A stretch of DNA of 39,360 nucleotides, taken from Gemmatimonadota bacterium (lineage in GTDB: Bacteria > Gemmatimonadota > Gemmatimonadetes > Longimicrobiales > Gaopeijiaceae). The notes beneath the pieces are model-generated. The model was not told the DNA's origin and ran no database searches. It saw only the letters and a program-made list of their open reading frames with translations. Position 1 is the first letter of the stretch; each line of letters begins with the position of its first letter. This document shows, one piece after another, positions 3,006-39,360 of this stretch. The DNA is taken from the NCBI GenBank assembly GCA_030827315.1, contig JAURER010000025.1, forward strand, positions 1 through 39,360, written 5' to 3'. The position numbers and the translations under genes are program-made.

Positions 3006-3062
3006 GACGGTACTCCTGAGGGACGGACGAGCCGGTGGACGATGGGGTGGATCGGAGCGTGG

Positions 3063-3068
3063 ATTCTA
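3063..3068 (-). promoter_or_regulatory. Candidate -10 element for the M19 dipeptidase operon
   Basis: TAGAAT on the minus strand lies 58 nt before the GTG of the dipeptidase gene, inside the 175-nt gap after the PhoD gene. I could not identify a convincing -35. The gap also contains a GC-rich palindrome (CCCCGCGGGG). No other gene is visible in it. Confidence 0.35.
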
Positions 3069-3180
3069 CGGGAGGAACCCCCGCGGGGCCATCGGTGGAC
3101 CCTGCGCGCGCCCGATCACGCCGTCCCCGCCGACCGAAGATCGTGCCCGGGCGGTCGCGTTCGTCTCCCGGCAGCCCGCC

Positions 3181-6422: not shown

Positions 6423-6470
6423 GGGTGCACCCCTCCTCGGTCCGGTCCTCTGAGTTTCCGCCGGTCGTCG

Positions 6471-7955: not shown

Positions 7956-7977
7956 CTCGTTCATTCCTGTGTCGGGA

Positions 7978-9687
7978 TCATCGAACGGTACCCGGACCAC
8001 GCAGCACCACGCCCGGCCGCGCCCCGGTCACCGCGCCGTCGCGAACGATCGCCACGCCGCCCACGAAGACGTGCGGGATGCCGACCGGATGCTGGTGCGG
8101 GTTCTCGAAGGTCGCCCGGTCGATCACCGTCGCCGGGTCGAAGACGGTGAGGTCGGCGACGTTGCCCGGCTCGATCCTGCCCCGGTCGGCGAAACCCAAC
8201 CGGTCCGCCGGCGCGGACGTCATCCTGCGGACCGCCTCGGGAAGCGAGATCGCGCCGAGGTCCCGTGCGTAGTGACCGAGCACCCGGGGATACGTTCCGT
8301 ACCCTCGGGGATGCGGGCTCGCGACGCCGAAATGCACGAGGCTCCCGTCCGACCCGATCATTCCGTGTTCCGCCGCCATAAGCAGCCGTACGTCGCCCTC
8401 GTCGAAAGCGTGGAAGATGGCGCTGCAACCCCCCGCGGCGTCGATCTCGAGGATCAGATCCGCCACCGCGGCGGGCGTGCCGTCGACGTCGCGCGCCGCC
8501 AGTACGTCGAGCAGCGTGAGCCCAGCCATCTCGGACGGAAACGCGGACGCCCCGGGGCCTTCGAAGCGGCACGACACGAGCTGGATCTTCGACGGGTCGC
8601 TGGCGAAGCGCATCTCGAAGAAGGCCTCGATGTCGTCGACCACCCTCACACGCGTCGCCGGGTCCGTGAGTCGCTCCTCGAGCCGTCCGCCCTCCTGCGC
8701 CCAGCGTGGGATGATGCTCGACAGCCCCGTCGACGACGCGGTGTACGGGTACTGGTCGAAGGTCACGTCGATCCCCTCGGCCCTGGCATCCTCGATGAGC
8801 GCGACGGACTCGGCGGCGCGCCCGAAGTTCCGCCACGCACCGATCTTGTGATGCGTCATCTGGACCGGGATGCCTGCTTCCCGTCCGATGCGGATCGTCT
8901 CGCGCACGGACTCGAATACGCCGTCTCCCTCGTTGCGCATGTGCGAGATGTAGATGCCGCCGTACGACGCCGCGACGCGAGAGAGCTCGATCACCTCCTC
9001 GGTCGTCGCGAAGCTTCCCGGGAGGTAGAACAGCCCCGTGGACAGCCCGAGCGCGCCTTCCTCCATGGCGCGCTCGACGAACGCCTTCATGGCCGCGAGC
9101 TCCTCGTCGTCCGGAGCCCGGTCGTCTTCGCCGAGCACTTCTTCGCGGATCGTCCCGTGGCCGACGAACATCGCGAAGTTCGGCGCGGTCCCGCCGCTCG
9201 CGGTCAGGGAGTCGTACCAGTGGGCCAGGTCGAGAGGCGAGCCGCCGTCGTTGCCCTCCACGAGCGTCGTGACGCCCTGCAGCACGAAGTTGTCGGCGGT
9301 CGGGATCTCGAAGATCGTCCCGCGGGAATGGGTGTGAGGATCGATGAAGCCGGGGGCCACCACATGCCCGGTCACATCCACGCGTTCGGTGGCGGATCGG
9401 CCCGCCAGGTCACCGACCGCCGCGATCCGGCCGTCGAGCACGCCCACGTCGGCGACGAAGCCTTCCGCCCCGGTCCCGTCGATGACGGTGCCGCCGGCCA
9501 GGACCAGATCGAAGTCCGGGGCGCAGGCGCTCGAGGCGACCGCGGTCACGAGGAGCGTCACCGCGGCCCGTGCACGTCGCGGGCGTGTCCGGACTCGGCC
9601 GGTCGGCGAGCGGCCGTCGTCGCGATCGGGTCCGGTGGTCTTCACAAGCGGAAACAGGGGGCGGTGTGGCTCGAGTCCGACGGTCAT
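7978..9687 (-). CDS. N-acyl-D-amino-acid deacylase family amidohydrolase, lipoprotein
   Basis: The 569-residue product has a long Arg-rich n-region of about 40 residues, then a hydrophobic core ending VASSAC, a plausible lipobox. The amidohydrolase part opens with LVLAGGTVIDGTGAEGF. It has the HTH metal motif (FIDPHTHSRG), ISHMRNEGD, QMTHHKIG, and the catalytic Asp in MIGSDGSLVHFG. This is the D-aminoacylase family, which releases D-amino acids from N-acyl derivatives. The zinc-ligand Cys of the classical enzyme (GNCG) is not present; this protein reads TTLVEGNDGG there. The start at 9687 is preferred over the ATG two codons earlier because GGAGG is six bases upstream. The S12 hydrolase follows 22 nt downstream. 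Confidence 0.88.
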   Translation of the reverse strand: MTVGLEPHRPLFPLVKTTGPDRDDGRSPTGRVRTRPRRARAAVTLLVTAVASSACAPDFDLVLAGGTVIDGTGAEGFVADVGVLDGRIAAVGDLAGRSATERVDVTGHVVAPGFIDPHTHSRGTIFEIPTADNFVLQGVTTLVEGNDGGSPLDLAHWYDSLTASGGTAPNFAMFVGHGTIREEVLGEDDRAPDDEELAAMKAFVERAMEEGALGLSTGLFYLPGSFATTEEVIELSRVAASYGGIYISHMRNEGDGVFESVRETIRIGREAGIPVQMTHHKIGAWRNFGRAAESVALIEDARAEGIDVTFDQYPYTASSTGLSSIIPRWAQEGGRLEERLTDPATRVRVVDDIEAFFEMRFASDPSKIQLVSCRFEGPGASAFPSEMAGLTLLDVLAARDVDGTPAAVADLILEIDAAGGCSAIFHAFDEGDVRLLMAAEHGMIGSDGSLVHFGVASPHPRGYGTYPRVLGHYARDLGAISLPEAVRRMTSAPADRLGFADRGRIEPGNVADLTVFDPATVIDRATFENPHQHPVGIPHVFVGGVAIVRDGAVTGARPGVVLRGPGTVR

Positions 9688-9753
9688 GGGCATCCTCCAC
9701 GGCGGGCAGGGAGCTTAGGGACGCGGGCGCCGAAACGACAGTCGGGGCCGGAA

Positions 9754-19251: not shown

Positions 19252-21432
19252 TCACCGCACACCGACCCACCCCTTCACGGAGGCGAACAGCTTCGTGGAG
19301 TCGTATCCCACGCCGTCCTTGAAGACCAGCGCCGTACCTCGGAATGCCGCGACGTCGACGGTGGGGTCGCCACGAAGGAGAACGAGGTCCGCCCGCTTAC
19401 CGGCTTCCACGGTCCCGATCTCCCCGTCGCGCTCGAGATATCGGGCCCCATTTCGAGTCGCGACCTCCACCGCCTGCTCGGCGGTGAGTCCCATCTCGAC
19501 GAGCAGCTGCAGTGCGCGCTGGTTCGCGTACCCGGGTACGACGTCGCCTGCGCCGGTGGGGTCGGTGCCCACCACGAGGAAGCCCCCAGCGTCGTAGAAG
19601 GCCTTCTCCATGGCCATGTACTTCCGCAGCAGCGCCTCGCCCCGTTCGCCCCCCCGGCCGAGGCTCGCCATGACCCGCTCGTGGAGCTGGGGGAGCATCG
19701 CCTCCTGCGCCCCCGCGGGAGGAGCCTCGCGCCCCGGCGCGCGGCGCTCCACCACGGTGAGCGTCGAGGTCAGTGCGACCCCCCTCTCGACCAGGTGGTC
19801 GACGAGACCCCGGAAGGCCGCGCCCGAAAGGTCGAGGTCGAGATACGACTGGTCCGCGCCGCGGGGACACAGGTCGGGTTCCTTGCCCGCGACGAAGTCC
19901 GTGGAGGCGAAGAAGCCGTGCTCCAGGTTGTCGATGCCGAGGTCGGCCGCCTCGCGGTACGTGATCGAGCAGAGGTGTCCGGTGACCTTGGCGCCGCGCG
20001 CGTGCGCCGCCTCGATGGCCGCCCCGAGGGTGGCCCGGTCGATCAGGTTGTAGGCCTTGAACGAGGTCGCACCCTGGTCGAGCCAGAAGTTCACGTGCGC
20101 GCGCGCCTCCGCCGGCGTGGTGAGCTGCGGCATCGCCCGCACGAATCCGTTCGCTCCTTCCAGGTAGGGGGCCGTCACGTCCATGTGCGGCCCCGCGATC
20201 CGGCCCTCGTCGATGTGCTGCTGGACCCGCAGGTCCGTGTACGTATCGACGCTACCGCCGGTGCGCATCGTGGTGACCCCGCCGGCGAGGTAGAGCGGTG
20301 GGAACGAGATCTCGTTCGTGTTGTAGCGCCGCTCGCCGGACGGATAGAAGAGGTGCTCGTGGAGCATCACGAGCCCGGGAATGAGGGTGTGACCCGCCCC
20401 GTCCACGACCTCCGCACCCACCGGAGTTCCGATCTCCGCCGCGGGTCCCACCCGAGCGATGCGGCCGTCGCGGATCTCGACCGACACGCCCGAGCGGGCG
20501 GGTGCACCCGTCCCGTCGATGAGGCGGACGTCACGGATGACCACGTGCGGCGCCGAGACCGAGACGAATTCACGTACCTGCTCGGCGAGATCGTCGTACC
20601 GCAACGCCGGCACCAGGTCGGCCTGTTGGACCCGCCACAGGTCGAAGCGTCGACGCACCTCGGGTATGGGATTGGGCCCCTCGCGGGGCGCGTGGTGCGA
20701 GATGGCCAGCCACGGAGCGTCCTCGGTCCCCTCGTCGGTGTGGTTGATGTCCACCGCGGCGTAGGGCGGATCACTCGCACGGGCGACGAGAATCATCGCC
20801 GTCGCGGCGGTGGAGGTGATGCCATCCCGGTTGCAGCGGATGTCGCCACCGGCCGCCGAGCCCGCCTCGAGGGCCCGCATGAGCCGGTCGGGGAGCGTGT
20901 TGTGGCCACGCGGATCGTCGCGCATGAAGGTCGCGAGCGCGTCGCCGACGACGGCCTCGCTCACCAGGGTGTTGCCCTGGGCCGTCACGGCCATCCCGAG
21001 GTCCGCGCGCACGCCGGTCCATTCCGACGTGCCGTCACCGGTAAAGCCCGCCACCTCCACCACGCCGTCGTGCAGGGTCACCGCACCGTACTGCCGCCGC
21101 GACGTCGCCGTGTCGGCCGTCACCACCAGATCGATGATCTCCTGCGCCCGACGGCCCTCCCGTAGGGCCGCGAACGCACGGTTGCGGTTCTCCAGGTTCC
21201 ACGCCGCCTGGGTGGCCACGACGCCGACCCCCGGAACGAGCGCCCCGACGGCGTCGCCGAAGGTGTTAGGAACGCACGACGCCATAGCGATCCCGACGTC
21301 GCCGGTCCCGGGATCGAGCGCGGCGATGGACCACGTGGTCATGTCGAGCTCAGACACGCCTTCCTGGGCAGCCAGCGGCGCGACGCAGCCCACCGAGAGC
21401 ACCACGCCGCCGGCGATCGTCAGCATCCTCAT
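19252..21432 (-). CDS. Secreted DUF1028-amidohydrolase fusion protein
   Basis: One 726-residue open frame joins two enzymes. After a signal peptide (CVAPLAAQ), residues about 31-250 are a DUF1028 Ntn-hydrolase-like domain opening TTWSIAALDPGTGDVG. A linker of about 40 residues leads to an amidohydrolase domain from residue 297 (VVIRDVRLIDGTGAP). Its metal and catalytic set is complete: H358 and H360 (LHEHLF), K459 (SFKAYN), H486 (TGHLCS), H505 (NLEHGF) and D624 (VGTDPTG), as in imidazolonepropionase/prolidase-like members. AAGGAG is six bases before the ATG at 21432. The fusion suggests that both activities act in series on one extracytoplasmic substrate. No stop or frameshift is seen at the join. 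Confidence 0.88.
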   Translation of the reverse strand: MRMLTIAGGVVLSVGCVAPLAAQEGVSELDMTTWSIAALDPGTGDVGIAMASCVPNTFGDAVGALVPGVGVVATQAAWNLENRNRAFAALREGRRAQEIIDLVVTADTATSRRQYGAVTLHDGVVEVAGFTGDGTSEWTGVRADLGMAVTAQGNTLVSEAVVGDALATFMRDDPRGHNTLPDRLMRALEAGSAAGGDIRCNRDGITSTAATAMILVARASDPPYAAVDINHTDEGTEDAPWLAISHHAPREGPNPIPEVRRRFDLWRVQQADLVPALRYDDLAEQVREFVSVSAPHVVIRDVRLIDGTGAPARSGVSVEIRDGRIARVGPAAEIGTPVGAEVVDGAGHTLIPGLVMLHEHLFYPSGERRYNTNEISFPPLYLAGGVTTMRTGGSVDTYTDLRVQQHIDEGRIAGPHMDVTAPYLEGANGFVRAMPQLTTPAEARAHVNFWLDQGATSFKAYNLIDRATLGAAIEAAHARGAKVTGHLCSITYREAADLGIDNLEHGFFASTDFVAGKEPDLCPRGADQSYLDLDLSGAAFRGLVDHLVERGVALTSTLTVVERRAPGREAPPAGAQEAMLPQLHERVMASLGRGGERGEALLRKYMAMEKAFYDAGGFLVVGTDPTGAGDVVPGYANQRALQLLVEMGLTAEQAVEVATRNGARYLERDGEIGTVEAGKRADLVLLRGDPTVDVAAFRGTALVFKDGVGYDSTKLFASVKGWVGVR

Positions 21433-21452
21433 TCTTTTCTCCTTCCAATGAA

Positions 21453-21482
21453 GCGGGGTCCCCGGCGAACCGGGGACCCCGC
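21453..21482 (-). terminator. Perfect 13-bp hairpin with tetraloop after the PQQ dehydrogenase gene
   Basis: GCGGGGTCCCCGG (21453-21465) and CCGGGGACCCCGC (21470-21482) form a perfect stem with a CGAA loop (read TTCG on the minus strand, a very stable tetraloop). It lies 56 nt past the dehydrogenase stop and 20 nt before the fusion gene. TTCATT follows on the minus strand. Confidence 0.75.
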
Positions 21483-21538
21483 GAACTCTGTGATCGGCCG
21501 TAGGACGGAGGCCCGAAGGCGCACCGTGCTCGGTTCGG

Positions 21539-23599
21539 TCAGTTGGGCAGCGCCATCGCGAAGTTGCCGCCATTCGTGGCCACCACGATGTACTGCCGGC
21601 CTTCGTGCATGTACGTCATCAGGGCGTACCGGTTGTCGTCGGGGATCGGGGCCCGGCCGACTTCCTCGCCCGTCCGCTTGTCGACCGCGAACAGGTGCGG
21701 CGTGTCGTCGGTGGAGTTGCCGGCGTAGACGAGCATGTCGGGCGTCACGAACATGGCCGCCTGACGCCCGCTTCCCGTCCGCGGATCGGGCTTGCCCTGA
21801 ACCGCCGGGTGTTCCAGCACGTAGTCCGGAGTGTCGCCGATCGGGATCCACCACAGGTGCTCGCCCGTGTTCAGGTCGATCGCCGTGATCTTGCTGTACG
21901 GCGCCTTCCAGAAGGGCAGCCCATCGATCCGCCCCGGGCTGGCCGCCGGGCCGGGCACCCACTCGTTGACCGTCGTGCCCGTCGGCTGCCCGGGCTCGTT
22001 GCCCACCTCGGCGCCGTCGTCCTTCTCGGCCCCGGGGATCAGGATGCGGGAAGAGCACCCCTTCTGCGACGGGACGTAGATGATCCCGGTCGAGGGGTCG
22101 TAGGCGGGCGTACCGTCGATGTTCGTGCCACCCACGTCTCCCGGGCACCAGATCGCCGCCCGCTTTCCGAGCTCGTTGTCACGGTGCAGCGGCGGCAGGA
22201 AGAGCGGCCCCCTCTGGAAGTCGGCGAGCGCCTCGATCGCCATCTGCCGAAGCTCCGGCGAGAAGTCGATCAGGTCGTCGTCCGACAGCCCCTGCATGTC
22301 GTACGGCGCGGGCTTCGTCGGGAAGGGCTGGGTCGGCGAGAGGTACTCGCCCGGCACCAGGGACTGCGGCACCGGACGCTCCTCGATGGGCCAGATCGGC
22401 TCACCGGTCTCGCGGTTGAGCACGTAGAGAAACGCCTGCTTCGTCGCCTGCGCGACGATGGGCGTCTCGACACCGTCGATCATCACGTCGGCGAGGATCG
22501 GTACCTGCGGCGTGTCGTAGTTCCAGATGGGGTGATGGACGAACTGGAAGTGCCAGCGCCGCTCGCCGGTCTCGATGTCGAGCGCGATCAGGCTGGTCCC
22601 GAACAGGTTGTTCCCCGGACGGAAGCCGCCGAAGTAGTCCTGCGTGGGGCTGTTGGTGGGAACGTAGACGAGCCCCAGCTCCGGGTCCGCCGCGAGCGGC
22701 GCCCAGGACGAGATGTCGCCGGTCCACTCCCACGCGTCGTTCTCCCACGTCTCGTGGCCGACCTCGCCCGGTCCCGGGATCACGTCGAACTTCCAGAGCT
22801 TCTCACCCGTGCGGGCGTCGTAGCCGAGAATGTCGCCGGGAATCATCTCGCGGCGGGTCTGGTTGTACCCCTGCTCCGCGGAGTTTCCGACCACGACGAC
22901 GCCGTTCGAGACGAGGGCGGGCGATGAGCTCGTGATGTACCCCGTCTCGAGCGGAATGCCGTCCGCCGGGTTCTCGTACTCGTATCCGAGACCGTTCGGG
23001 CCGAGCAGATCGATCACCCCCGTCTCGGGAAAACCCTCGATCCCGACCGGCCCACCGAACCCCTCGATGTGCTCCCCGGTGTGCGCGTCGATGGCGTGCA
23101 GGAAGAACGCGGGCGAGATCAGGTAGACGATGTCACGACCGTCCACGTTCGCGTACGCGACGCCCTTGCCGTGGTTCTTCCGCATCGAGTAGGCCCAGCG
23201 GAACGTCTCGGGCTCCGTGTACGTCCACACCTCCGCACCAGTGCCGGCGTCGGTCGCCACCACGGAGCGATACTCGGAGTGGACGTTGATGAGCAGGCCG
23301 TCCACGTAGATCGGGATCGATCGCGCGTTCACGGACCCGAGATGCGTCGCGTCGTACTCCCACGCGACCTCCAGGTCGGCGAAGTTCGACGGGTTGATCT
23401 GCGTCAGCCCCGTGTAGCGCTGTCCCTGGTTGTTCCCGGTGATGACGGCCCAGTCACCCTCGACGGTGACGCCGGCGGCTCGGCCGCTCGCGGCAGCGTC
23501 GTTGCCCGATTCGGCGCACGCGCTCCCGAGCACGACGATGGTTGCGAGCGCCAGCCAGCGAGTGGACGTGAGGGTCGATCGAAGCAAGCTCGTGCTCAT
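21539..23599 (-). CDS. PQQ-dependent beta-propeller dehydrogenase, lipoprotein
   Basis: The 686-residue product has a lipoprotein signal ending LGSAC28. The remainder is a quinoprotein beta-propeller of the membrane glucose/alcohol dehydrogenase type. Typical blade motifs recur: NFADLEVAWEY, VVATDAGTGAEVWTY, ALDIETGERRWHFQ, AIDLNTGEHLWWIP and AVDKRTGEEVGRA. IWNYDTPQVP matches the conserved WxYDxPxxP element near the PQQ and metal site. There is no CxxCH heme motif, so electrons must go to a separate acceptor or to quinone. Substrate is probably a sugar or alcohol but cannot be fixed. AAAGG precedes the ATG. PQQ biosynthesis genes are not in the window. It is followed by a strong terminator and appears monocistronic. 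Confidence 0.88.
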   Translation of the reverse strand: MSTSLLRSTLTSTRWLALATIVVLGSACAESGNDAAASGRAAGVTVEGDWAVITGNNQGQRYTGLTQINPSNFADLEVAWEYDATHLGSVNARSIPIYVDGLLINVHSEYRSVVATDAGTGAEVWTYTEPETFRWAYSMRKNHGKGVAYANVDGRDIVYLISPAFFLHAIDAHTGEHIEGFGGPVGIEGFPETGVIDLLGPNGLGYEYENPADGIPLETGYITSSSPALVSNGVVVVGNSAEQGYNQTRREMIPGDILGYDARTGEKLWKFDVIPGPGEVGHETWENDAWEWTGDISSWAPLAADPELGLVYVPTNSPTQDYFGGFRPGNNLFGTSLIALDIETGERRWHFQFVHHPIWNYDTPQVPILADVMIDGVETPIVAQATKQAFLYVLNRETGEPIWPIEERPVPQSLVPGEYLSPTQPFPTKPAPYDMQGLSDDDLIDFSPELRQMAIEALADFQRGPLFLPPLHRDNELGKRAAIWCPGDVGGTNIDGTPAYDPSTGIIYVPSQKGCSSRILIPGAEKDDGAEVGNEPGQPTGTTVNEWVPGPAASPGRIDGLPFWKAPYSKITAIDLNTGEHLWWIPIGDTPDYVLEHPAVQGKPDPRTGSGRQAAMFVTPDMLVYAGNSTDDTPHLFAVDKRTGEEVGRAPIPDDNRYALMTYMHEGRQYIVVATNGGNFAMALPN

Positions 23600-28631: not shown

Positions 28632-29344
28632 TTCAGCTCCAGGGTTCCGTTCGGGGTTTCGAGCGTGGCGATCACGCCGGGAGCTTGGGCCCACGCGACC
28701 GGCGTGTCGAGCCCCAGCGCGCGGAGCCAGGTCCCGACGCGCTCCGGCTCCGGATGCTCCACGCGCATGCCGACCAAGGCACACGACGGCGCCAGCGATT
28801 CGGCGGGATGCGGCGACGCGCCCCAGTCGATGAAGAAGGGGATCACGCCGCCGGCACGATCGGCCCACGGATCGGTCATGGACCATCGGAGCACCGACCC
28901 GTCCGTGCGGGCGCGCACTCCCTGCCGCGTCTCGCCCAGATCGACTCCCGCGGCCCGAGCCCGGGCCGAGAGCGTCGCGAGGTCCGGCACGGGGTGATCA
29001 GGCACCCGGCCATCGTCGTCCGGCAGCCGCAGGTTGCGGATCGAGACGCACCAGGTGACCAGGCGGGGCGACGCGAGCGTATCGAGCCCGAACCAGCGCG
29101 GCCCGTCCGGCGCCGCCTGCTCGGGGTCCGGACTCACGACCTCCATGTACGCCCGCCCTCCGAAGCCGAGCAATCGGTTGTGCGTGCCGAAGCCTTCGTG
29201 TCTGCCGCCGGGCTGCATGGGGGCGCCCAGGAGCGTTTCCACGTGACGCACGCCGACGTCCAGACCCGGCGCGGCGAAGACCAGGTGATCCACCACGCGC
29301 GCGATCGGCGCCAACGGCCGGCGCCCCGCGTTCAGCCCGTCCAA
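28628..29344 (-). CDS. Glyoxalase/VOC-superfamily protein (glyoxalase-like domain)
   Basis: The 238-residue protein has the VOC start VVDHLVFAAPGLDVGVRHVE, with the His used as a metal ligand in this fold. AYMEVVSPDP supplies a likely Glu ligand. A second, looser half ends the protein (CALVGMRVEHPEPERVGTWLRALG). It fits the glyoxalase-like group that lacks a known reaction. The start is uncertain: a TTG at 29344 overlaps the phosphopantetheinyl-transferase end by 13 nt, while GTG codons near 29299 just before VVDH are possible. The 3' end overlaps the asparaginase ATG. Tight coupling on both sides indicates co-translation within the operon. Confidence 0.8.
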   Translation of the reverse strand: MDGLNAGRRPLAPIARVVDHLVFAAPGLDVGVRHVETLLGAPMQPGGRHEGFGTHNRLLGFGGRAYMEVVSPDPEQAAPDGPRWFGLDTLASPRLVTWCVSIRNLRLPDDDGRVPDHPVPDLATLSARARAAGVDLGETRQGVRARTDGSVLRWSMTDPWADRAGGVIPFFIDWGASPHPAESLAPSCALVGMRVEHPEPERVGTWLRALGLDTPVAWAQAPGVIATLETPNGTLELK

Positions 29345-30021
29345 AGATCGTTCCCGGCGCGCAGCACGTTCACCTCATGGATGCGTTCGGAGCCGGCGAG
29401 CGCGGCAAGGTAGCCCGCACCGGGATCGAAGGACGTGAGCCGACCGGACTCCAACTCCCTCCGGACGTCCAGCGCGGCGTCCGGCGGTCCGCCTGCCGTA
29501 CCCTTCATGAGGCGCAGCCCGGCTCCGTGTCGCTTCGCGAGCGCCTCCTTGGCGGTCCACAGCCGCATGAACTCGACGTCACGCCGGTCTTCCGGAACCG
29601 CGGCGAGGGCCTCGACTTCGGACACACCGAACCAGCGTTGCGCGATCGCTTCGGCGCGCGGGACGGATCGAAGCCTCTCGACGTCCACCCCGATGCTGCC
29701 CGACGCGCCCACCGCCACGGCGAAGAGGTCTCCTGAGTGCGCCACCGAGAACGCGGGACCCGGAATGAGCACCGGCTTCCCGCCCGGAGCGGTGACGATG
29801 CGCACTTCCGCCGGAGCGACGTCCACGTATCGGGCGAGCACGAGGCGGAGCGTCGCCCTCCGCGAGAGCAGGTGGCGTGCCTGGACCGGATCCACCATGC
29901 GCTCGGCCCGGACGCGGTCCGTCGACGACGCGAGATCGAGTTCGGCGGCGGCCGCGAACGCCGGGTCCGACATATCCACGAGCCAGACGTCGGGGCGCCG
30001 GGCCCGGTCGATCGAGCTCAA
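29332..30021 (-). CDS. 4'-phosphopantetheinyl transferase, Sfp type
   Basis: The 229-residue enzyme transfers phosphopantetheine from coenzyme A to the Ser of acyl carrier proteins. The family motifs are all present: GGKPVL, FSVAHSGDLFAVAVG, the Mg-binding D113 and E115 in IGVDVERLR, and W155 to K163 in LWTAKEALAK. The length is normal for Sfp-type enzymes. The start is a TTG at 30021, since a stop lies only six codons upstream in this frame; AAGGA lies about 11 bases before it. An internal ATG at codon 17 would cut the first strand. It follows the PfaC-like gene by 45 nt, so its likely clients are the ACPs of the adjacent synthase (the PfaE role). Confidence 0.93.
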   Translation of the reverse strand: MSSIDRARRPDVWLVDMSDPAFAAAAELDLASSTDRVRAERMVDPVQARHLLSRRATLRLVLARYVDVAPAEVRIVTAPGGKPVLIPGPAFSVAHSGDLFAVAVGASGSIGVDVERLRSVPRAEAIAQRWFGVSEVEALAAVPEDRRDVEFMRLWTAKEALAKRHGAGLRLMKGTAGGPPDAALDVRRELESGRLTSFDPGAGYLAALAGSERIHEVNVLRAGNDLWTG

Positions 30022-30066
30022 TCGCGGCCCCGTCCTTCACCGCCGCGGGTCATGCCCCGCCCGCGA

Positions 30067-33000
30067 TCACTTGCCCCCGGCCCGCACGCGGATGGCGAAC
30101 GAAGGCACTTCGTAGATGCGCAGGCCGTCGACCCACTGCGTCCCGAAGATCTCGACCGTCACCGACTCGCCCTCGACGATCTCGAGCTTGAGCGCTTCCA
30201 CTTCCGTCACGACATGGTCCCGCTTCGGCACCACCTGTCCACGGTACCTCCACGCGAGCGGGAAGCCGACGACCGGGTGCTCCCACACCGGGTTCTCGAT
30301 CCCGTCCAGCCACCCCTTCATGTGGACGAGCGCCCGAGCCGACTGCACCAGCGCCTCCAGACCCAGCGAGCCGGGCTGGACCGGGTCCTCGTAGAAGTGC
30401 GCCTTGAAGTACCAGGCGTCGTAGTGGATCTGCTGCCACGTCCGGATCCGCCCCAGCCCGGCGTCGCCCCCGTCCGCCCAGAATCCCGTGACCTTGTCGA
30501 GCATCCGCATCCTGCCGCTCGCCATGCCGGGCAGGTGGGCGAGCGCGCCACCCCCGTCGAGGAGCGAGATCTCCGGGACCGGCGAGGGCGCGTCGCGGCG
30601 AGCCCGCATCTCGTCGGTGGTGGGAAGTCCACGCTGATCCTCGAGAATCTTGGGGCTGAAGAAGCCGAAGTCCGTCGTCAGCGTCATCACCGGTCCTTCC
30701 GCGTCGGCGCACACCACGTCGAAGAAGACGATACTGGTGCCCCCCGCCTTGGCGAACCGGGTCAGCTTCGTGGTGAGCGTCAGCGTCCCCTGATCCGGGC
30801 CCACCGGCTTGTGGAGGATGCACTTCTCGCCGTCGAGGTTCCGGAAGGCGACATCGCCTTCCGTGTCGCGAAAGAAGTTGCAGTACGAGGCGAACCAGCC
30901 GCACGGCTGGAGGAGCGCCTCGACGAGGACGGCGAAGGGCATGTGCCCCTGCCCTTCCTCGAAGTACCACGCCTTCGGGTCGATGTCGAAGGTCGACACC
31001 AGCGTGCCCTCGTTCGGCGCGGACCCCGGCGCGACGTCGACCGACACGACGCTGCTGACGAAGTGGTAGGGCGGGCCCGGCAGGCGCGGGCACTTGGTGG
31101 GTCCGTCGTACTTAGTGAACATCCTGCCGAACGCGTCGCTCGGACGGCCCCAGGCGCACGAGAGCATCGCCTCGTAGTCGCCACGGACATCCGAGTCACC
31201 CGGTCCTACGTAACGGATCCCCTCCGCACCCACGAGAAACTCCCGCTTCGTCGTGAGCGGGAAGTCAGGCACCAGGCGCATGCCGAAGCGACGGCACTGG
31301 AAGACCTTGAAGCCGTCGCTCTTGCACAGGAGCGACGCGTAGACCTCAGGGAGGTCTCCGTCGATGATCTCCTCGATGAAGACCTCGTAGTCGAGGTCGT
31401 GCGCGCCGTCGGGAACGACCTGGCCGCGGCAAAGGAAGCGAGCCACCTGGCCCGGAATCGGTTCGAAGCGCCATCCGTCACGCGCGATCGTGAAGCCCAT
31501 GGCCGCCATCATGAAGGACAACGCCTGCGTCGCGGCATCGGCCATCAGCGTGCCCGGCATGCACGGGTCATTCTTGAAGTGCCCGTCGTAGAACCAGGCG
31601 TCGGCCGGCACGTGGGCTTCGGCGCGCAGATAGCCGCGTCCCCACGGTCCGCCCTGCGGCTCGAACACCGGCACGTGGTCGATGAGCTTCATGCGGCCAC
31701 CGGGGATGTTCGGCGTGCGGGTGTGGCACGCAGCCATCTCGAAGCCGTCCCCGAAGCACGCCCACGCGTCGCCGTCCACCCACGACTGCACCTCGTCGTG
31801 CGTGAAGCTGCGCCGGGTCGACACGCACGGTGCCGGATCGAGGCGCGCATCCGGATCGGGCTCGTCGTCCTCGGCGTCCCAGAGAACGCCGCCCGAGTCC
31901 GCGAGCTCCTCGTCCGTGAAGAACCCCGCCTGCCCGTTGCGTACGGAGATCAGGAGCCGATCGCCGATGTAGCAGTCGTAATGGAAGAAGAAGAGGCGCA
32001 CGTCGCCGGTCTTGGCATGTCCGTCGACGTAGATGTCGTACGTGAGCGTCTCGCCGGGCTTCGGCAGCTCGCCGTAGAACGTCAGGTCGCACCCCAGCAG
32101 ACGGTAGACGCGGTCGCTCCGGTTCAGGAAGTCCGCGCCCAGCCACGAAATGAGAAGCAGATCGGCCTGCCCCGACTCGATGACCACGCCCGGCACCATC
32201 CGCCCCGCGTGCAGATACCACACGCCGTCCCGTACGTCCGTCTCCGTGACGACGCGCCCCTTCTTCATCGTGCCCGGTTCGCCCTCGATGGTGAGCGCGC
32301 GGTCGGCGAAGAGAAGCGGGGGCTCCGGCATGCGAACCTGACGCTCATAGCCGTCCTGCTGCTCGAACAGCTCCCCGAAGATCTCGGATATGTTCCCGCC
32401 TGCGTGGACCTCGAGCTGCTCGCGGCTGAGAAAGACCGTCTTCGGCATCGCCGAGCGGTCGATGGGGGGATGGATGGGGATCAGTGGCGTCGGCCCGGCC
32501 GGTGCCTTCTTCGCCCCGGTGGCAGCGGGGGCCGCCGCAGGCGTCGGGGCACCGAATCCCGGAGCGGCCGGAGTGGCCGCCACGGGCGGTGCGGGCGGTG
32601 CGGGCGGTGCGGCAGTCGGAGGTGCAGCCGAGACACCCGATGCGGCGCCTTCGACGACCACTCGGAGGTCGGGGCTTCGCACGGCGGGTGGCGGCGAGTG
32701 GACGGGCGCTCCCGCCGGCGGAGTGACACCCGTCGACAACGCCCCGCCCAGACCCATGCGCAGAAAGCGCTCGTGCGTCTCCACCTGCTCGCGCAGGAAC
32801 CGCGCATGCGTGTCGGCCACGGCCTGGAAGAGATCGAGCGCGCTGTTGCCCGTGCCGGCCGGTGCGCCCGGCGCCGTCGGGGCGGACCCGACGGCCGTCG
32901 ACGGCGCGGTCGCGGCGCGGGGCGCGGTCACGGCGGCGGTGCCCGCCGCCGCGGCGGGCGCCGCCCCCGTCCCGGGCCTGCTCGCTCCGTTTCCGGTGCC

Positions 33001-36000
33001 GAAATGCGTGCGCACGTCGTATCCGAAGCCCGACGCCGGTGGCGGCGCCATTGTGTCGGTCCCGGCCACGGCCGGGCTCGCTGTCGTCTCGTTCATGAAC
33101 GTCGTTTTCGTTGCGCCCGCCGCCGCACCGACCGGCTCCGCAGCCGGCCACACGACCTCGGGAGAGTGAGCATGAAGGCGCAGCACCGCGCCCTCGGGCG
33201 AAGCCGGGGGCCGGCCTCCCTCGCGGAGCGCGCCCAGGCGGGCGGTGAAGGTCTCGAGCACCATGGGCACGCCGATGGCCCACAGACGGGCCACGGACCG
33301 AGCGACGGCCTCGAGGCCGGCGCCCTCGTGCGGGTCCATGGCGACGACCGTGTGGGGACGTCCCTCGAGGATCCGCCCGATCGCGCCGGTGAGGATCGCC
33401 CGCGGGCCGTGCTCGATGAAGATGCGCACGCCGTCCGCGTACGCCTGCTCCACCGTCTTCGGAAAGTCGACCGGGTCGATCGCCTGCTGCGTGATCGCGT
33501 CGGCCGCGGCCTTCCGCGTGGGCACGTACGCGCGGTTGCCCGCATTCGTGTAGAAGCGCACGTCGGGCACCCTCCGCGTCGAGCGCACGTGCACGCGATG
33601 CCACGTCTTCTCGAAGGGTGCGAGCGGGGGGCAGTGCACCACCATGTCGAGGCCGAGGTCGATCGCACGATTGCGGCCGACCTTCTCGACGACCCTGTCG
33701 CACCCGTCGGCATCGCCCCCGATGACGACGTCTTCGTAGTGGTGGATGACCGTGACGTAGACGCGCTCCTCGCCCCGCATCGCCTCTTCGACCACGGCGA
33801 GCGGCGCGGCGATGCGGTAGTTGCGCCAGCGTGGCACTTCGCCCTGCGGCAGCCCCCAGAACTCGGCCGCCGACCGGCACTCGCCGGTCAGCTGGTTCAC
33901 GTACATCTCGGAGTCGTCAATCTCCGCGAGCATGTCGTCGAGGTCGTGCCACACGCCGAACGCCATGAGCGAGTTGGTCTCGCCGGACGACAGACCGAGG
34001 GCGACTTCCGGCTTCATGCCCAGGATGTCGCGCGTGAATTCCGTGTGCGCCTGACACACGAACGACGACCCCATGAGCTGCGTCGCCGGCGAGAACGAGG
34101 TGATTTCGGCACCGTACAGCGTCGCGGCCAGCGTGGGCGTGCCCGCGAAGCGCGCGGCGAGGTTGTGCCCGATGCGCGGGAACGCGAGCAGCAGGTCCCG
34201 CGCCGCTCCGGGATAGGCTGCGGCAGCGCCCGTGTAGCAGAAGGCGACCTCGCCCTCGGGCGTTCCGCGCCCGAAAAAGACGCCGGGCGCCACCGGCTCT
34301 CTCCCTGCGCGCAGCTCCCCGGCCACCCAGCGGCGCATGCGCTCGACGTCCTCGTCCCCCTTTCCCACGAGCGCGAGCCGGACGTCGCCCTCGAAGGCGT
34401 CACGCCCGGTCTCGACGACTCCCGCGAGCGCGTCAAGCGACTCCGCGGCGAAGAAGCGCACCAGCGGCGCGTCGACCGGGCTGATCGCCCGGGCAGTGGC
34501 CACGGGGGCGCGCAGCTGCACCGTGCCGCGCACGCCCGTGAACGACTCCACCTCGACGCGGGTGTGGACCCCCTCGATGCGACGCGGCGCCGGCCATGCA
34601 CCGGCACGATCGAGCGTGGCTCCGAGGTGGGCCGTGATCGCGCCGACGGCGACGTGGAGCAGCCCCGAGGCACCGTGCGCATGCCCGAAGCGTGCGGTCA
34701 CCTCGCTCTGGCCCCTCGCCGGGACGAGCGAAAGGTCGACCGTCCCACCCTCCGGAGTGTCCGCATCTTCCACGAGCGACGCGAAGATCGGGTACCCCTT
34801 CTCCGTGGCATCGGTCTCGCGCATGAGCACCAGCGCCACAGCGGCATCGCCGGGCTTCCGGCGATCGTCGGGGAATACGGCGTCCGCGGCGGCCCGGTGC
34901 GCGGCCTCGTGCGAAAAGTCCGAGGCGCCCACCACGGCGGCGTCGATCTCCCCGGCCTGCAGCGCACGCACGGCCAGCTTCAGCGCCTCGGTTCCCGACA
35001 GCTCCTCGCTCGCGACCGTGAAGCCGGGCGCACGCCAGTCCTGCTGCGCATGAACGCGGTTGGCGGGAATGTTCGGCATGCAACCGATGACTCCGGCCGC
35101 GGTCAGATGCCTCGCGGCCTTCTCGTTGGCCGCGCGCCATCCGTCCATGTCGACGTCGGGACTGAGCAGCTCCCGCAGGCGGACCCGGAGGCCGTGCCGG
35201 GCAGCCTGAGGGTCGACGCACATCCCGACGTAGACGCCCGTCCGGTCCGGATTCAGTCCACCGACCTGCCCGAGGGCCTCCTCGAGCACCGCCAGGATCG
35301 ACGTCTGCTGCGCGAGGCTCTCCTTGAGGTCGTTGGGCGGGAACCCGAGCCTGCCCATGGGGAGCACGATCTCGTCGGTCCGGGTGCTCCCACCCCGCCG
35401 AGCGTCCACCACGCGGCGCACGAAGTCGGGGAGCCCCACCGTGTCTCCGGCAATGACCCCGAGCGCCGAAATCGCGATGGCCGGCGCCTTCTTCGGCCGT
35501 GCGTCGCGCGCCTTCCTGCGCGCCGGACTCTCTCCCGTCCATTCCTCGACCAGCAGATGGGCGTTGTTGCCACCGAAGCCGAAGTTCGAGATCGCGGCCC
35601 GGCGCGGTCGCCCGTCGGTCTCCCATGGCTCCGCACGGGCAAGGAGACGGAACCCATGGCGGGCGATCGCCTCGAGCGGCTCGTCGCAGGGTGTAGGCGG
35701 AAAGAGGCCCGCCTCGAAGCAGCCGAGGACCTTGAGCAGGCTCGCGATCCCGGATGCCGTGATGGGGTGCCCGATGTTGGCCTTCAGCGAGCCGATCACC
35801 GGCTTGGGCCCGTCACCCAGCAGCTGGGTCAGGGATTCCAGCTCAATCGTGTCGCCCCGCGGCGTACCGGTCGCGTGACACTCGATGTAGTCGATGTCAC
35901 TCGGAGAGAGGCCCGCCCGCGCGTACGCAGCCCTCATGGCCCGCAGCTGCCCGTCCACGGCCGGGGCGAGGAACCCGCTCTGCCTGCCGTCGTTGGAGAG

Positions 36001-36855
36001 CCCAACGCCCCGGATGACGCCGAAGATCCTGTCACCGTCCCGGACGGCGTCGTCGACGCGCTTGAGGGCCACCAGCCCGGCACCCTCGGCCGGAAGCAGG
36101 CCGTCTGCGCCCCGGTGCAGTGGACGGGAGCGGCCGCTCGGGCTGAGCGCCTGCAGGGCGGTGAAGCCCAGGTGAATGAAGAGCGGATCGGCCCGCGCCA
36201 CGCCACCGGCGAGCATGAGGTCCGATTCGCGGTCCTGGAGACGCCGGCACGCAATCTCGAGCGCGTAGAGCGAAGAGGCACACGCCGCGTCGAGCGCGAA
36301 GACGTCTCCATCGAGGCCGAACGCCCGGGCCACGACATGAGCCGGCCCACCCGAAGAGAAGCGGTTCCGCGGATCGGACGAGACGCCGGCCCGTCCCGGG
36401 GCAGGGGCATTCTCGCCGTGCCCCAGCCAGAAGTCTTCGACCCAGCGCGTGTGCTCGACCGTCGGATAGGAGAGGTTCCCGATGACCAGGCCCGACCGGG
36501 GAGGCATGGAAGAGACTCTCGCCTCCCGCAGCGCCACGTCCGCACACCACAGAAGCCACTGCGTCAGCGGATCGAGTCGGTCTGGACGCTCGACCCGGTC
36601 CTCGAACGCGCCCGGATCGAAGACCCGGTCGAAGCCGGTCACGTAGCCGCCGCGGTTGCTCACGACGTACTCGGCACCGGGCCCGGGAGACTTCACGGAT
36701 AGGAGCCGCCGCGAGTCCATCCCCCACGCTCCCTCCGGTGCCTCGTCGATGAGCACGCGCGCGTCGCGCACAGCCGCGAACAGCGTCTCCGGGTCGAGCG
36801 CACCCGGCAGTACGCAGGCGCGTCCGATGATGGCGATCGGCTCGAAGCTACTCAT
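30067..36855 (-). CDS. pfaC: PfaC-like polyunsaturated-lipid synthase subunit: KS-CLF-AT-(DH)2
   Basis: A 2262-residue multidomain enzyme. The ketosynthase (about 5-440) has a full triad: C192 (LDAACASS), H327 (ECHATGTPRGD) and H363 (KANIGH). A second KS-like chain-length-factor domain (about 458-790) lacks the active Cys (VASEELSGTEAL). An acyltransferase (about 865-1200) has S956 in GLSSGE and His1074 in VVHCPPL. An Ala/Pro linker (1215-1460) follows. Four hot-dog folds then make two dehydratase pairs: GRMVPGVVIESGQADL near 1555, WFYDGHFKNDPCMPGTL near 1755, WYFEEGQGHMPF near 1965 and WYFKAHFYEDPVQPGSL near 2150. No ACP or terminal acyltransferase is seen. AT inside PfaC recalls the myxobacterial Pfa3 layout, which differs from the marine PfaB/PfaC split. 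It starts 24 nt after the PfaA-like gene, with GGAG before the ATG. Confidence 0.93.
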   Translation of the reverse strand: MSSFEPIAIIGRACVLPGALDPETLFAAVRDARVLIDEAPEGAWGMDSRRLLSVKSPGPGAEYVVSNRGGYVTGFDRVFDPGAFEDRVERPDRLDPLTQWLLWCADVALREARVSSMPPRSGLVIGNLSYPTVEHTRWVEDFWLGHGENAPAPGRAGVSSDPRNRFSSGGPAHVVARAFGLDGDVFALDAACASSLYALEIACRRLQDRESDLMLAGGVARADPLFIHLGFTALQALSPSGRSRPLHRGADGLLPAEGAGLVALKRVDDAVRDGDRIFGVIRGVGLSNDGRQSGFLAPAVDGQLRAMRAAYARAGLSPSDIDYIECHATGTPRGDTIELESLTQLLGDGPKPVIGSLKANIGHPITASGIASLLKVLGCFEAGLFPPTPCDEPLEAIARHGFRLLARAEPWETDGRPRRAAISNFGFGGNNAHLLVEEWTGESPARRKARDARPKKAPAIAISALGVIAGDTVGLPDFVRRVVDARRGGSTRTDEIVLPMGRLGFPPNDLKESLAQQTSILAVLEEALGQVGGLNPDRTGVYVGMCVDPQAARHGLRVRLRELLSPDVDMDGWRAANEKAARHLTAAGVIGCMPNIPANRVHAQQDWRAPGFTVASEELSGTEALKLAVRALQAGEIDAAVVGASDFSHEAAHRAAADAVFPDDRRKPGDAAVALVLMRETDATEKGYPIFASLVEDADTPEGGTVDLSLVPARGQSEVTARFGHAHGASGLLHVAVGAITAHLGATLDRAGAWPAPRRIEGVHTRVEVESFTGVRGTVQLRAPVATARAISPVDAPLVRFFAAESLDALAGVVETGRDAFEGDVRLALVGKGDEDVERMRRWVAGELRAGREPVAPGVFFGRGTPEGEVAFCYTGAAAAYPGAARDLLLAFPRIGHNLAARFAGTPTLAATLYGAEITSFSPATQLMGSSFVCQAHTEFTRDILGMKPEVALGLSSGETNSLMAFGVWHDLDDMLAEIDDSEMYVNQLTGECRSAAEFWGLPQGEVPRWRNYRIAAPLAVVEEAMRGEERVYVTVIHHYEDVVIGGDADGCDRVVEKVGRNRAIDLGLDMVVHCPPLAPFEKTWHRVHVRSTRRVPDVRFYTNAGNRAYVPTRKAAADAITQQAIDPVDFPKTVEQAYADGVRIFIEHGPRAILTGAIGRILEGRPHTVVAMDPHEGAGLEAVARSVARLWAIGVPMVLETFTARLGALREGGRPPASPEGAVLRLHAHSPEVVWPAAEPVGAAAGATKTTFMNETTASPAVAGTDTMAPPPASGFGYDVRTHFGTGNGASRPGTGAAPAAAAGTAAVTAPRAATAPSTAVGSAPTAPGAPAGTGNSALDLFQAVADTHARFLREQVETHERFLRMGLGGALSTGVTPPAGAPVHSPPPAVRSPDLRVVVEGAASGVSAAPPTAAPPAPPAPPVAATPAAPGFGAPTPAAAPAATGAKKAPAGPTPLIPIHPPIDRSAMPKTVFLSREQLEVHAGGNISEIFGELFEQQDGYERQVRMPEPPLLFADRALTIEGEPGTMKKGRVVTETDVRDGVWYLHAGRMVPGVVIESGQADLLLISWLGADFLNRSDRVYRLLGCDLTFYGELPKPGETLTYDIYVDGHAKTGDVRLFFFHYDCYIGDRLLISVRNGQAGFFTDEELADSGGVLWDAEDDEPDPDARLDPAPCVSTRRSFTHDEVQSWVDGDAWACFGDGFEMAACHTRTPNIPGGRMKLIDHVPVFEPQGGPWGRGYLRAEAHVPADAWFYDGHFKNDPCMPGTLMADAATQALSFMMAAMGFTIARDGWRFEPIPGQVARFLCRGQVVPDGAHDLDYEVFIEEIIDGDLPEVYASLLCKSDGFKVFQCRRFGMRLVPDFPLTTKREFLVGAEGIRYVGPGDSDVRGDYEAMLSCAWGRPSDAFGRMFTKYDGPTKCPRLPGPPYHFVSSVVSVDVAPGSAPNEGTLVSTFDIDPKAWYFEEGQGHMPFAVLVEALLQPCGWFASYCNFFRDTEGDVAFRNLDGEKCILHKPVGPDQGTLTLTTKLTRFAKAGGTSIVFFDVVCADAEGPVMTLTTDFGFFSPKILEDQRGLPTTDEMRARRDAPSPVPEISLLDGGGALAHLPGMASGRMRMLDKVTGFWADGGDAGLGRIRTWQQIHYDAWYFKAHFYEDPVQPGSLGLEALVQSARALVHMKGWLDGIENPVWEHPVVGFPLAWRYRGQVVPKRDHVVTEVEALKLEIVEGESVTVEIFGTQWVDGLRIYEVPSFAIRVRAGGK
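32583..32612 (+). repeat. Short in-frame tandem repeat in the PfaC-like linker
   Basis: The 9-mer CGGGCGGTG is repeated 3.3 times. Read on the minus strand it encodes Ala-Pro-Pro units (APPAPPAPP) of the flexible linker before the hot-dog domains. Slippage here would change linker length by three residues without breaking the frame. Confidence 0.85.
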
Positions 36856-36879
36856 GACCGGCTCCGCCGATTCGCCCGA

Positions 36880-39360
36880 TCACGCGCCCGGTGCGTCGAA
36901 CCGCACCTCGCGAAGCTCCGCGACCAGGTCGCCGTCCTCGGTGGCGAGCACGAAGTCGAACAGCGTCCCGCCTTCGGTCTTCCGCGCGCGGAAGGCGGAG
37001 CGCAACTGCTCCGGAATGGACTCCAGGCGGTGCACCACCATGGTGCCCATGCTCGCGAGCTTCTGCATGGCACCGGTCTTGTGGTGTGTCCAGAGCTCAC
37101 CGAGCTGCAGGAGACTCTCGAACGCCGCCGGATCGAAGCCGCGGGCCAGCCCTCTGGGCGCCCACCCGATGGACGGTGCGCCCCGGATCAGCGCCATGCC
37201 GCCCTCCTCCGAGATTCCTTCCAGATCAACGATCGAGCGACTGCTGCCGGTACCTCCGTGCAGCGTCGCGTACGCCGCGCCGGCCTCGAGCGGCCAGGGC
37301 TCCAGGCCGGCCGACGGGACCTGTGGGGGCGGAGCTGCTCCGTTCTCGTCGTACCGTACGCGCGTCTCGTGATGCGCGTTGCCGGCCGAGTCGCGGAAGA
37401 TCAGGTGGTAGCCTGGGATCGCGGCGACGATGGGCTGGATCTCCACCTGTCCCCCACCCGTCAGCGCCGCGCCGGCCTCGCGGACCCCGATGATGAAGTC
37501 CTCGAGAACCATGCGCATGGTGCGGACCGGCTTGAGCGCCTCACCGAGCCGGAACGCGAAATCGGCGACGAGCGCCGGCGCGAGAGAGAAGGCACCCGTG
37601 CCTTCCGCTTCCTCGTCCACAGGGGGCGCCGCGAAGGTCAGCCTGTAGGCTCCCGCCGGGAACGACGGGGCGGCGAGCACCACGCGCTCCACGCCGGCCC
37701 CCGGCTGCCCGAGCTCGTCCACGAAGAACTGCGCTCCGACGTCGACGTCGAGCAGTGCGATCCCCTGCTTCTCGAAGTGCGCCGCCAGGCCCGCGTCGAC
37801 CATGCCCCCGGCCCACGGGCCCCAGTTGTACGACCGGACGCGGCACCAGTCCCCACGCCGGTGGGCTTCGGAAGCCGCCACCTTGTTGAGCACCTCGTTC
37901 GCGGCGGAATACGCGGCCTGCCCGGCGTTACCCGCCCGGGCGGCGATCGACGAGAAGAGCGCGATCACCTGGATCGGGTCTTCCCTGGTCGCCTTCAGCA
38001 GCACCGACAGGCCGGTAACCTTGGGTGCGAACACGTCGGCGACGCGGTCCGGCGTCATGTCGGCAATCGCCTTGTCACGCAGCACACCGGCTCCGTGAAC
38101 GATGCCGTCGATCGAGCCCCACCGGTCACGGACCTGATCAAGCGCGCTGTCGACCTCGTCCGCGTTGGTGACGTCCGCGCTCACGTACATCGTCTCGATG
38201 CCGCGAGCGTCGAGGTCCGCGAGGGAGAGCCGCACTTCCGCGCTCGCGGCGAGCGACGCGGCCTTTTTCTGGAGACCGGCCAGCTCCACCTTGTCACCTC
38301 GCTTCGCGGCGGCGGCGGCGAGCGCGGCGGTGATCTTCACCGCGTCGGTCGTGAGCGGAACGCCCTCCGGCCACTCCGCGAGCGCCGACCGCCCGAGCAA
38401 CGCCAGGCGCAGCTTCCACGCCTCGGCGAGCCGGGCCACGGAACTGGCCGTGACCCCGCGGGCGCCACCTGACACGACGAGCACGGAGCCGGGCTCGAGC
38501 GGCGGAGCTTCGCTTCCGCCCCTCACGGTCATGGGTTCGATGCCGACGACGGAACGCGTTCCATCGGCGGCGATCCCGACCTCGAGGGCTGGCCCCCCCA
38601 GGAAGAGCTCGTCGAGGATCTCCTCGGCGGCGCTGTCCGGGTCGGCCACGTCGATGGCCTTGAGCGATGCGCCCGGCCACTCGCGCGCCGCCGTCTTCAC
38701 GACACCGGCGAGCCCCGCGGCCCACGCGCCGTCGCCGGGGTCACCGGTGAGACCGAAGTCGCCCCCGGACGACTGGATCGTCACGAAGAGGCGCTCGGCC
38801 GGGTCCGGGTGCGAAGCGACCATCCGTGCTGCCCGGATCGCGCTCTGGTGCACCTCGATGGAGGCTTCGGGGCCGGGCTTGTACTGACCGAGCCCGGCGA
38901 GACAAATGACCGCTCGTGCGTTCGGCGACGACTCCGACACGACCCGCGCGCCGACACCGCGACTGCGCAGACCCTCTGCCAGCGCCGCCGCGAGTTCGGG
39001 GTGCTCGCCCGTGATCTCGACGGTGACTCCGTCGGTGAGCGTGGACAGACCGAAGCCCGGCCGGAGCTCCTGCACGATCCGCGGCACGAAGCACGAGACC
39101 GACGACGCGTCGACCACGCTCGGGGTCATCGCCCGCTCGACCACGGGCGACGGTGTAGCCATCACAGGCGCGGGCTCCGCGGCCGGAGCCCCGGCCGTCG
39201 ACACGCCGGAGAGACGGTCGGCCACGTCGCGCAGCGTTCGCAGCGTCGCCAGCTCCGACGGCGCGATCTCCGGCATCCCCGGCAGACGCGACTGCAGCTC
39301 CGACAGGATCTCGACCTGCTTGATCGAGTCGATCCCCAGACCGGCCTCCATCTCCATGTC
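36880..39360 (-). CDS. pfaA: PfaA-like polyunsaturated-lipid synthase subunit, C-terminal part: ACP-KR-DH (partial)
   Basis: The gene runs off the right edge; 826 C-terminal residues are visible. They begin inside an acyl carrier protein: GLGIDSIKQVEIL has the phosphopantetheine Ser. After a Pro/Ala linker comes a ketoreductase with an inactive N-terminal half (about 85-280) and an NADPH-binding half. The latter has VVSGGARGVT at 294-303, HGAG at 421, S469-S470, and the catalytic Y483 with N487 in YSAANEVLNK. A dehydratase-like hot-dog region fills about 590-825. The order ACP-KR-DH at the C-terminus matches PfaA, whose KS, malonyl-transferase and further ACPs would lie beyond the window. The SIKQVE form of the carrier motif is close to the usual PUFA-synthase SIKRVE. 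It is the first visible gene of the operon. Confidence 0.92.
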   Translation of the reverse strand, partial: DMEMEAGLGIDSIKQVEILSELQSRLPGMPEIAPSELATLRTLRDVADRLSGVSTAGAPAAEPAPVMATPSPVVERAMTPSVVDASSVSCFVPRIVQELRPGFGLSTLTDGVTVEITGEHPELAAALAEGLRSRGVGARVVSESSPNARAVICLAGLGQYKPGPEASIEVHQSAIRAARMVASHPDPAERLFVTIQSSGGDFGLTGDPGDGAWAAGLAGVVKTAAREWPGASLKAIDVADPDSAAEEILDELFLGGPALEVGIAADGTRSVVGIEPMTVRGGSEAPPLEPGSVLVVSGGARGVTASSVARLAEAWKLRLALLGRSALAEWPEGVPLTTDAVKITAALAAAAAKRGDKVELAGLQKKAASLAASAEVRLSLADLDARGIETMYVSADVTNADEVDSALDQVRDRWGSIDGIVHGAGVLRDKAIADMTPDRVADVFAPKVTGLSVLLKATREDPIQVIALFSSIAARAGNAGQAAYSAANEVLNKVAASEAHRRGDWCRVRSYNWGPWAGGMVDAGLAAHFEKQGIALLDVDVGAQFFVDELGQPGAGVERVVLAAPSFPAGAYRLTFAAPPVDEEAEGTGAFSLAPALVADFAFRLGEALKPVRTMRMVLEDFIIGVREAGAALTGGGQVEIQPIVAAIPGYHLIFRDSAGNAHHETRVRYDENGAAPPPQVPSAGLEPWPLEAGAAYATLHGGTGSSRSIVDLEGISEEGGMALIRGAPSIGWAPRGLARGFDPAAFESLLQLGELWTHHKTGAMQKLASMGTMVVHRLESIPEQLRSAFRARKTEGGTLFDFVLATEDGDLVAELREVRFDAPGA

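Follow-up and report, generated by a model that had tools for sequence, protein, structure and literature searches.

The stretch analyzed here (hereafter the window; 39,360 nucleotides, the entire contig C54 of a 3.07 Mb Gemmatimonadota genome assembled into 99 contigs at 98% completeness) carries on its minus strand, at 29332-39360, the 3' half of an operon for a Pfa-type synthase, an enzyme system like those that produce polyunsaturated fatty acids (PUFAs). Pfam and NCBIfam (TIGR) profile searches, together with domain hidden Markov models (HMMs) of our own, alignments and an AlphaFold2 (AF2) model, resolve its genuine open frames, separated by gaps of 24 and 45 nt, as follows:

36880-39360, minus strand: 3' part of pfaA, 826 residues, open at the contig end and continuing on contig C39 of the same genome (G000); acyl carrier protein (ACP), ketoreductase (KR) and degenerate polyketide synthase (PKS)-type dehydratase (DH)
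39181-39360, minus strand: final ACP of the tandem array, truncated where the contig ends, serine site GIDSIK (PF00550, own ACP HMM)
37711-38787, minus strand: KR of the short-chain dehydrogenase/reductase type, with GGARG, Ser and YxxxN motifs (PF08659, 2.7e-35; TIGR02813 positions 1881-2254)
36883-37680, minus strand: PKS-type DH domain (pseudo-DH), catalytic His lost and Asp site replaced by Glu (HMM, alignment, AF2 model)
30067-36855, minus strand: pfaBC (Pfa3-like), 2262 residues, ketosynthase (KS), chain length factor (CLF), acyltransferase (AT), DH and DH, without a C-terminal acylglycerol-phosphate acyltransferase (AGPAT) (profiles, own HMMs)
35500-36855, minus strand: ketosynthase KS2, Cys-His-His (PF00109/PF02801, motifs)
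34456-35499, minus strand: CLF, KS-like, active Cys absent (VASEELSG) (second PF00109 stretch, alignment)
33211-34293, minus strand: PfaB-like acyltransferase AT2, Ser in GLSSGE and His in VVHC (best PDB match 9ry8, alignment)
31270-32433, minus strand: FabA-like dehydratase unit 1 (DH1), His...Asp intact (PF07977, alignment)
30070-31269, minus strand: FabA-like dehydratase unit 2 (DH2), His...Glu intact (PF07977, alignment)
29332-30021, minus strand: pfaE, Sfp/HetI-type 4'-phosphopantetheinyl transferase (PPTase), TTG start (PF01648, 5.2e-14; HetI model, 95 bits)

These profiles agree with the initial annotation of the window, which had read it as one compact operon comprising a PfaA-like ACP-KR-DH end, a KS-CLF-AT-DH-DH protein and an Sfp-type transferase. 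The contig comes to an end within the tandem ACPs of pfaA, repeats that in relatives are units of about 300 nt with 76-85% identity, and it is this break that places the enoyl reductase (ER) out of view. The annotation was accordingly right that no ER is visible in the window, but the enzyme is encoded in the genome, and we rejected the notion that the system lacks one. The 5' half of the operon lies on two other contigs of the same genome, C14 and C39, whose ends share a 136-nt identical overlap, while C39 and C54 share an identical overlap of 81 nt inside an ACP. C39 (4771 nt) encodes the KS-malonyl acyltransferase (MAT)-ACP part of PfaA (903.1 bits to the PfaA model TIGR02813 in a genome profile search; the PfaA end in the window gives 259 bits). 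PfaD, the ER, lies on C39 with its start on C14, scores 568.8 bits against a TIGR02814 cut-off of 449.25, and has best PDB matches that carry the PfaD annotation. Both components expected beyond position 39360, the KS-MAT-ACP part and a PfaD-type ER, are thus at hand.

The complete arrangement, pfaD-pfaA-pfaBC-pfaE, is found on single contigs in six relatives (L036, L041, L042, L045, L047, L048), in all of which the PPTase gene is adjacent. Their PfaA proteins contain three to five ACPs, save for the one ACP unit in the L041 assembly, and the full-length PfaA ortholog of L036 reaches 1488.4 bits against the curated TIGR02813 cut-off of 1010.1. PfaD is present in all 14 genomes of the genus, as against only 19 of the 395 genomes sampled from the phylum. 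The records nearest to the window synthase that bear a name are Gemmatimonadetes metagenome-assembled genomes, in keeping with the phylum suggested from the window itself. Members of the genus share the genes flanking the operon, namely an amidase and a DUF1028 gene upstream and a glyoxalase-like and an asparaginase gene downstream, a pattern that points toward vertical inheritance within the genus and lends weight to the order of the contigs. Different flanks, made up of unrelated peptidase-type and other general genes, occur in L045 and L048, which represent two other genera of the family; scanning these two flanks uncovered no tailoring genes, and only the four pfa genes are therefore constantly linked. 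Our search of the open-access literature found no report of PUFA synthases in Gemmatimonadota; here, a complete Pfa synthase is a genus-wide trait in a little-studied phylum.

The active-site motifs of KS1, MAT, ACP, KR, KS2, AT2, DH1 and DH2 are intact in alignments and a motif check. Domain HMMs built in-house were run over 80 named loci, and in both KS1 and KS2-CLF trees the KS domains group with pfa synthases, apart from the type P and PKS-type outgroups (for KS1, Beijerinckia, a type P organism, Methylosinus and plasmid PKS-type sequences). The trees were built without marine eicosapentaenoic acid (EPA)/docosahexaenoic acid (DHA), heterocyst glycolipid or Aetherobacter sequences, and long-branch rows (L139, L142, L121, L043) make their deep branches unreliable; we therefore use only the shallow relationship, in which the Gemmatimonadota clade is sister to that of Mycolicibacterium and Mycobacterium simulans (support 99 in the KS2-CLF tree and 97 in the KS1 tree). 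The trees bear out the Pfa assignment with respect to the polyketide-type outgroups, while the heterocyst glycolipid synthase (Type F) alternative was judged by domain content: this type is defined by a KS-CLF-AT protein devoid of DH/I domains (PMC3098273), and the window protein has two DH units. Based on curated models, trees and motifs, we assign the window operon to the Pfa/PUFA synthases, and the proposal of a Pfa or secondary-lipid synthase is further strengthened by the recovery of its missing parts in the genome.

The initial annotation had also been correct that the AT is integrated and the terminal acyltransferase absent: a PfaB-like AT resides in PfaBC, zero residues follow DH2, and Pfam detects no PF01553 acyltransferase in the window protein. 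From this it had concluded that the operon represents a distinct pfa layout, differing both from the PfaA-E set of marine bacteria and from the AGPAT-bearing myxobacterial form. We rejected this reading as very improbable: Mycolicibacterium, Hyphomonas, Saccharopolyspora elongata and others likewise have KS-CLF-AT-DH-DH proteins that stop at DH2, and Shulse and Allen had already described the pfaBC fusion with this order for their Types C and D (PMC3098273). Longer PfaBC proteins bear tails of about 380 or about 700 residues, and the tails of about 700 residues that were tested (Sorangium L105, and L043) contain a PF01553 acyltransferase by Pfam.

The domain in which the operon does depart from most of its relatives is the DH at the PfaA end. 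Pfam gives no call here; an HMM derived from PfaA dehydratases outside Gemmatimonadota matches it at 84 bits, and the AF2 model (pLDDT 81.9) adopts a PKS-type double hotdog with PKS dehydratases among its PDB matches at up to Z 21.9. The dehydratase first noted at this end is thus present as a fold, but its catalytic His is absent. In an alignment of 54 PKS-type DH domains, the His is found in none of the seven from the Gemmatimonadota clade and in all 47 others; at the Asp site, five of the seven have Glu, one has Ala and one retains Asp. The loop that once bore the His is rewritten and corresponds to the low-confidence stretch of the model (residues 22-32). In this fold the His is generally needed for dehydration. 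Based on these residue losses, we predict that the domain is catalytically dead in the Gemmatimonadota clade. It might alternatively retain activity, either through a residue substituting for the His or by catalyzing a reaction other than dehydration, such as isomerization; its full length, its modeled fold, a conservation within the clade comparable to that of active homologs and the presence of a same-fold enoyl-isomerase (4u3v) among the PDB neighbors of the model would all accord with this. Nevertheless, the general requirement for the His, the rewriting of its entire loop with low model confidence and the variability of the Asp site lead us to regard continued activity as improbable.

Relaxed decay of the dead domain is not supported: identity of the domain within the clade is 0.63 versus 0.68 in the active mycobacterial homologs, a gap resembling that seen in other domains, such that its conservation relative to those domains is like that of active copies. 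That the dead DH decays no faster than its mycobacterial homolog suggests a structural role, and it has probably been kept as a structural part of PfaA. As the PKS-type DH is altogether missing in several pfa-like clusters, an active copy is no criterion for membership in this group of synthases. In known Pfa systems the PKS-type DH makes the 2-trans-enoyl intermediate that is reduced by the ER, whereas cis double bonds arise through isomerization by the FabA-like DH (PMC9702510, PMC9667614). Given a dead PKS-type DH and a retained PfaD, a FabA-like unit or the FabZ of the host must feed the ER; since the lost activity is the one that feeds saturating cycles in known systems, the programming of the cycle probably differs from theirs. 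We tentatively raise the stronger version of this proposal, to which we give somewhat less than even weight, that this is a Pfa lineage devoid of any PKS-type dehydratase activity, in which the FabA-like units serve both saturating and cis-forming cycles. If so, an entire Gemmatimonadota genus would have a pattern of unsaturation, and hence a lipid, different from EPA and DHA. The clade-wide loss of the catalytic function of this DH beside a sister clade that keeps it constitutes a natural experiment on which dehydratase decides between saturation and a cis double bond in the Pfa cycle.

Taken together, we consider it likely that pfaD-pfaA-pfaBC-pfaE forms a self-contained operon for an iterative, PUFA-synthase-like Pfa-type lipid synthase. 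In the cycle we envisage, the PPTase would arm the tandem ACPs, the MAT of PfaA would load malonyl units, KS1 and KS2-CLF would elongate the chain and the KR would reduce it. Dehydration and isomerization by the two FabA-like DH units of PfaBC, both intact, would then generate cis double bonds, and PfaD would saturate in chosen cycles, with the 2-trans-enoyl substrate for the latter supplied by a FabA-like DH or host FabZ; DH2, with its FabZ-like Glu, is a candidate for the unit that feeds the ER. Finally, the PfaB-like AT of PfaBC would end the chain, comparable to PfaB, which is reported to act as the terminal acyltransferase and to determine the product (PMC12895367). AT2 has its best PDB match in the Shewanella baltica PfaB (9ry8, E 1.3e-13); the fused domain scores 40.4 bits against the cut-off of 144.3 of TIGR02816, the model for separate PfaB proteins. 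A loss of the catalytic His from AT2 was considered and rejected, as other structure-match rows and the family alignment place this residue in VVHC.

The product of such a synthase would probably be a long-chain polyunsaturated acyl chain and possibly a specialized lipid, with a long-chain membrane PUFA being somewhat the likelier of the two. A self-contained, genus-wide operon fits a membrane PUFA; the clade-wide lack of a catalytic residue in one dehydratase means, however, that known relatives do not directly reveal which lipid is made. Several observations weigh against our interpretation. The product is a prediction from gene content. PfaA of this genome exists as two pieces (903.1 and 259.5 bits) and never on a single contig, and its ACP array is cut by the assembly, the count in relatives being three to five. 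AT2 has Leu before its Ser, as in some eukaryotic homologs, at the position where marine PfaB, such as that of Moritella, has an essential Tyr (PMC12895367). Furthermore, the nearest relatives outside the phylum have next to them either genes for a nonribosomal peptide synthetase (NRPS) pathway (L070) or genes of the rhamnose and MmpL kind (L055), and such neighbors in the sister clade suggest use in a specialized lipid over a free membrane PUFA.

The last of these points raises the alternative that the synthase supplies the acyl moiety for a specialized, glyco- or lipopeptide-like lipid, as in hybrid Pfa-NRPS/PKS pathways. In Mycobacterium simulans (L070:12361-21525) an NRPS gene and a gene for an adenylation-peptidyl carrier protein-reductase protein follow immediately downstream of the pfaBC-like gene; L055 and, in part, L059 are mycobacterial clusters beside RmlA/RmlB/RmlC-D-type and MMPL genes; and Pfa-like genes in hybrid mycobacterial clusters have been published (PMC13291983). 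Yet the Gemmatimonadota operon has no conserved NRPS, PKS, glycosyltransferase or transporter gene next to it; its neighbors are the amidase, DUF1028, glyoxalase-like and asparaginase genes in the genus and the unrelated general genes in the two other genera, and presence in every genome of the genus resembles that of a core lipid. We view a specialized lipid of this kind as the less likely reading and favor the self-contained PUFA-synthase-like operon.

Beyond the operon, a locus at G000:C72:38703-41968 with AT-like and KS-like matches to the PfaA model and acpP appears to serve type II fatty acid synthesis, apart from the pfa genes. Two DUF1028 proteins encoded in the window (585-1637 and 19252-21573), of which one carries TPR repeats and the other is an amidohydrolase-domain fusion, are paralogs of the DUF1028 gene that members of the genus have upstream of pfaD, and a minus-strand run of hydrolase genes at 1641-9693 codes for an M19 dipeptidase, an amidase, a beta-lactamase-fold protein and an amidohydrolase. 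The phylum also harbors at least two more separately branching pfa types (L034, L037, L038 and L049 from the same family; L043 from the same class, in which PfaA is split and an AGPAT-like tail is present). Further afield, a plasmid-borne pfa cluster with a long PfaBC tail in Azospirillum lipoferum 4B (plasmid AZO_p1; L131) shares 55% identity with the window type, both in KS-MAT and in the DH region.

Comparison with known systems places these observations in context. The marine gammaproteobacterial pfaABCDE systems, which make EPA and DHA, have an equal set of domains, and the best matches of PfaD and AT2 are solved PfaD proteins and PfaB, respectively; in contrast to them, the window type has an AT built into PfaC, a Leu in place of the Tyr next to the AT serine and a PKS-type DH lacking its catalytic His. 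Types C (Desulfatibacillum) and D (Psychroflexus, producing arachidonic acid (ARA) and EPA) share the pfaBC fusion with the order KS-CLF-AT-DH2, but in Type C pfaD sits 3' of the other genes and in Type D pfaA is split (PMC3098273); the Gemmatimonadota operons conform to neither, with pfaD at the 5' end and pfaA unsplit. The Hyphomonas clusters (L075, L077, L086, L087, L090, L100, L113) resemble them in the tail-less KS-CLF-AT-DH-DH protein and in a PfaA without a functional PKS-type DH, and differ in that PfaA is split, the KR is a separate protein and no PKS-type DH follows it (27-28 residues). The Pfa1-2-3 systems of Aetherobacter and Minicystis, producers of EPA, DHA and ARA (PMC8436480, PMC6731297), likewise place pfaD first, followed by PfaA and a KS-CLF-AT-DH-DH protein, Pfa3, which contains the AT and a terminal AGPAT (PMC8436480); the window type has no AGPAT, keeps the PPTase in the operon and has lost the catalytic His from the PKS-type DH of PfaA. 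Closest are the clusters of Mycolicibacterium and M. simulans (L055, L057-L059, L070), with PfaA as KS-MAT-ACP-KR-DH and PfaBC as KS-CLF-AT-DH-DH ending after DH2; no PPTase was found next door to them, NRPS or rhamnose/MmpL genes flank them and, unlike the Gemmatimonadota type, they retain the active-site residues of the PKS-type DH.

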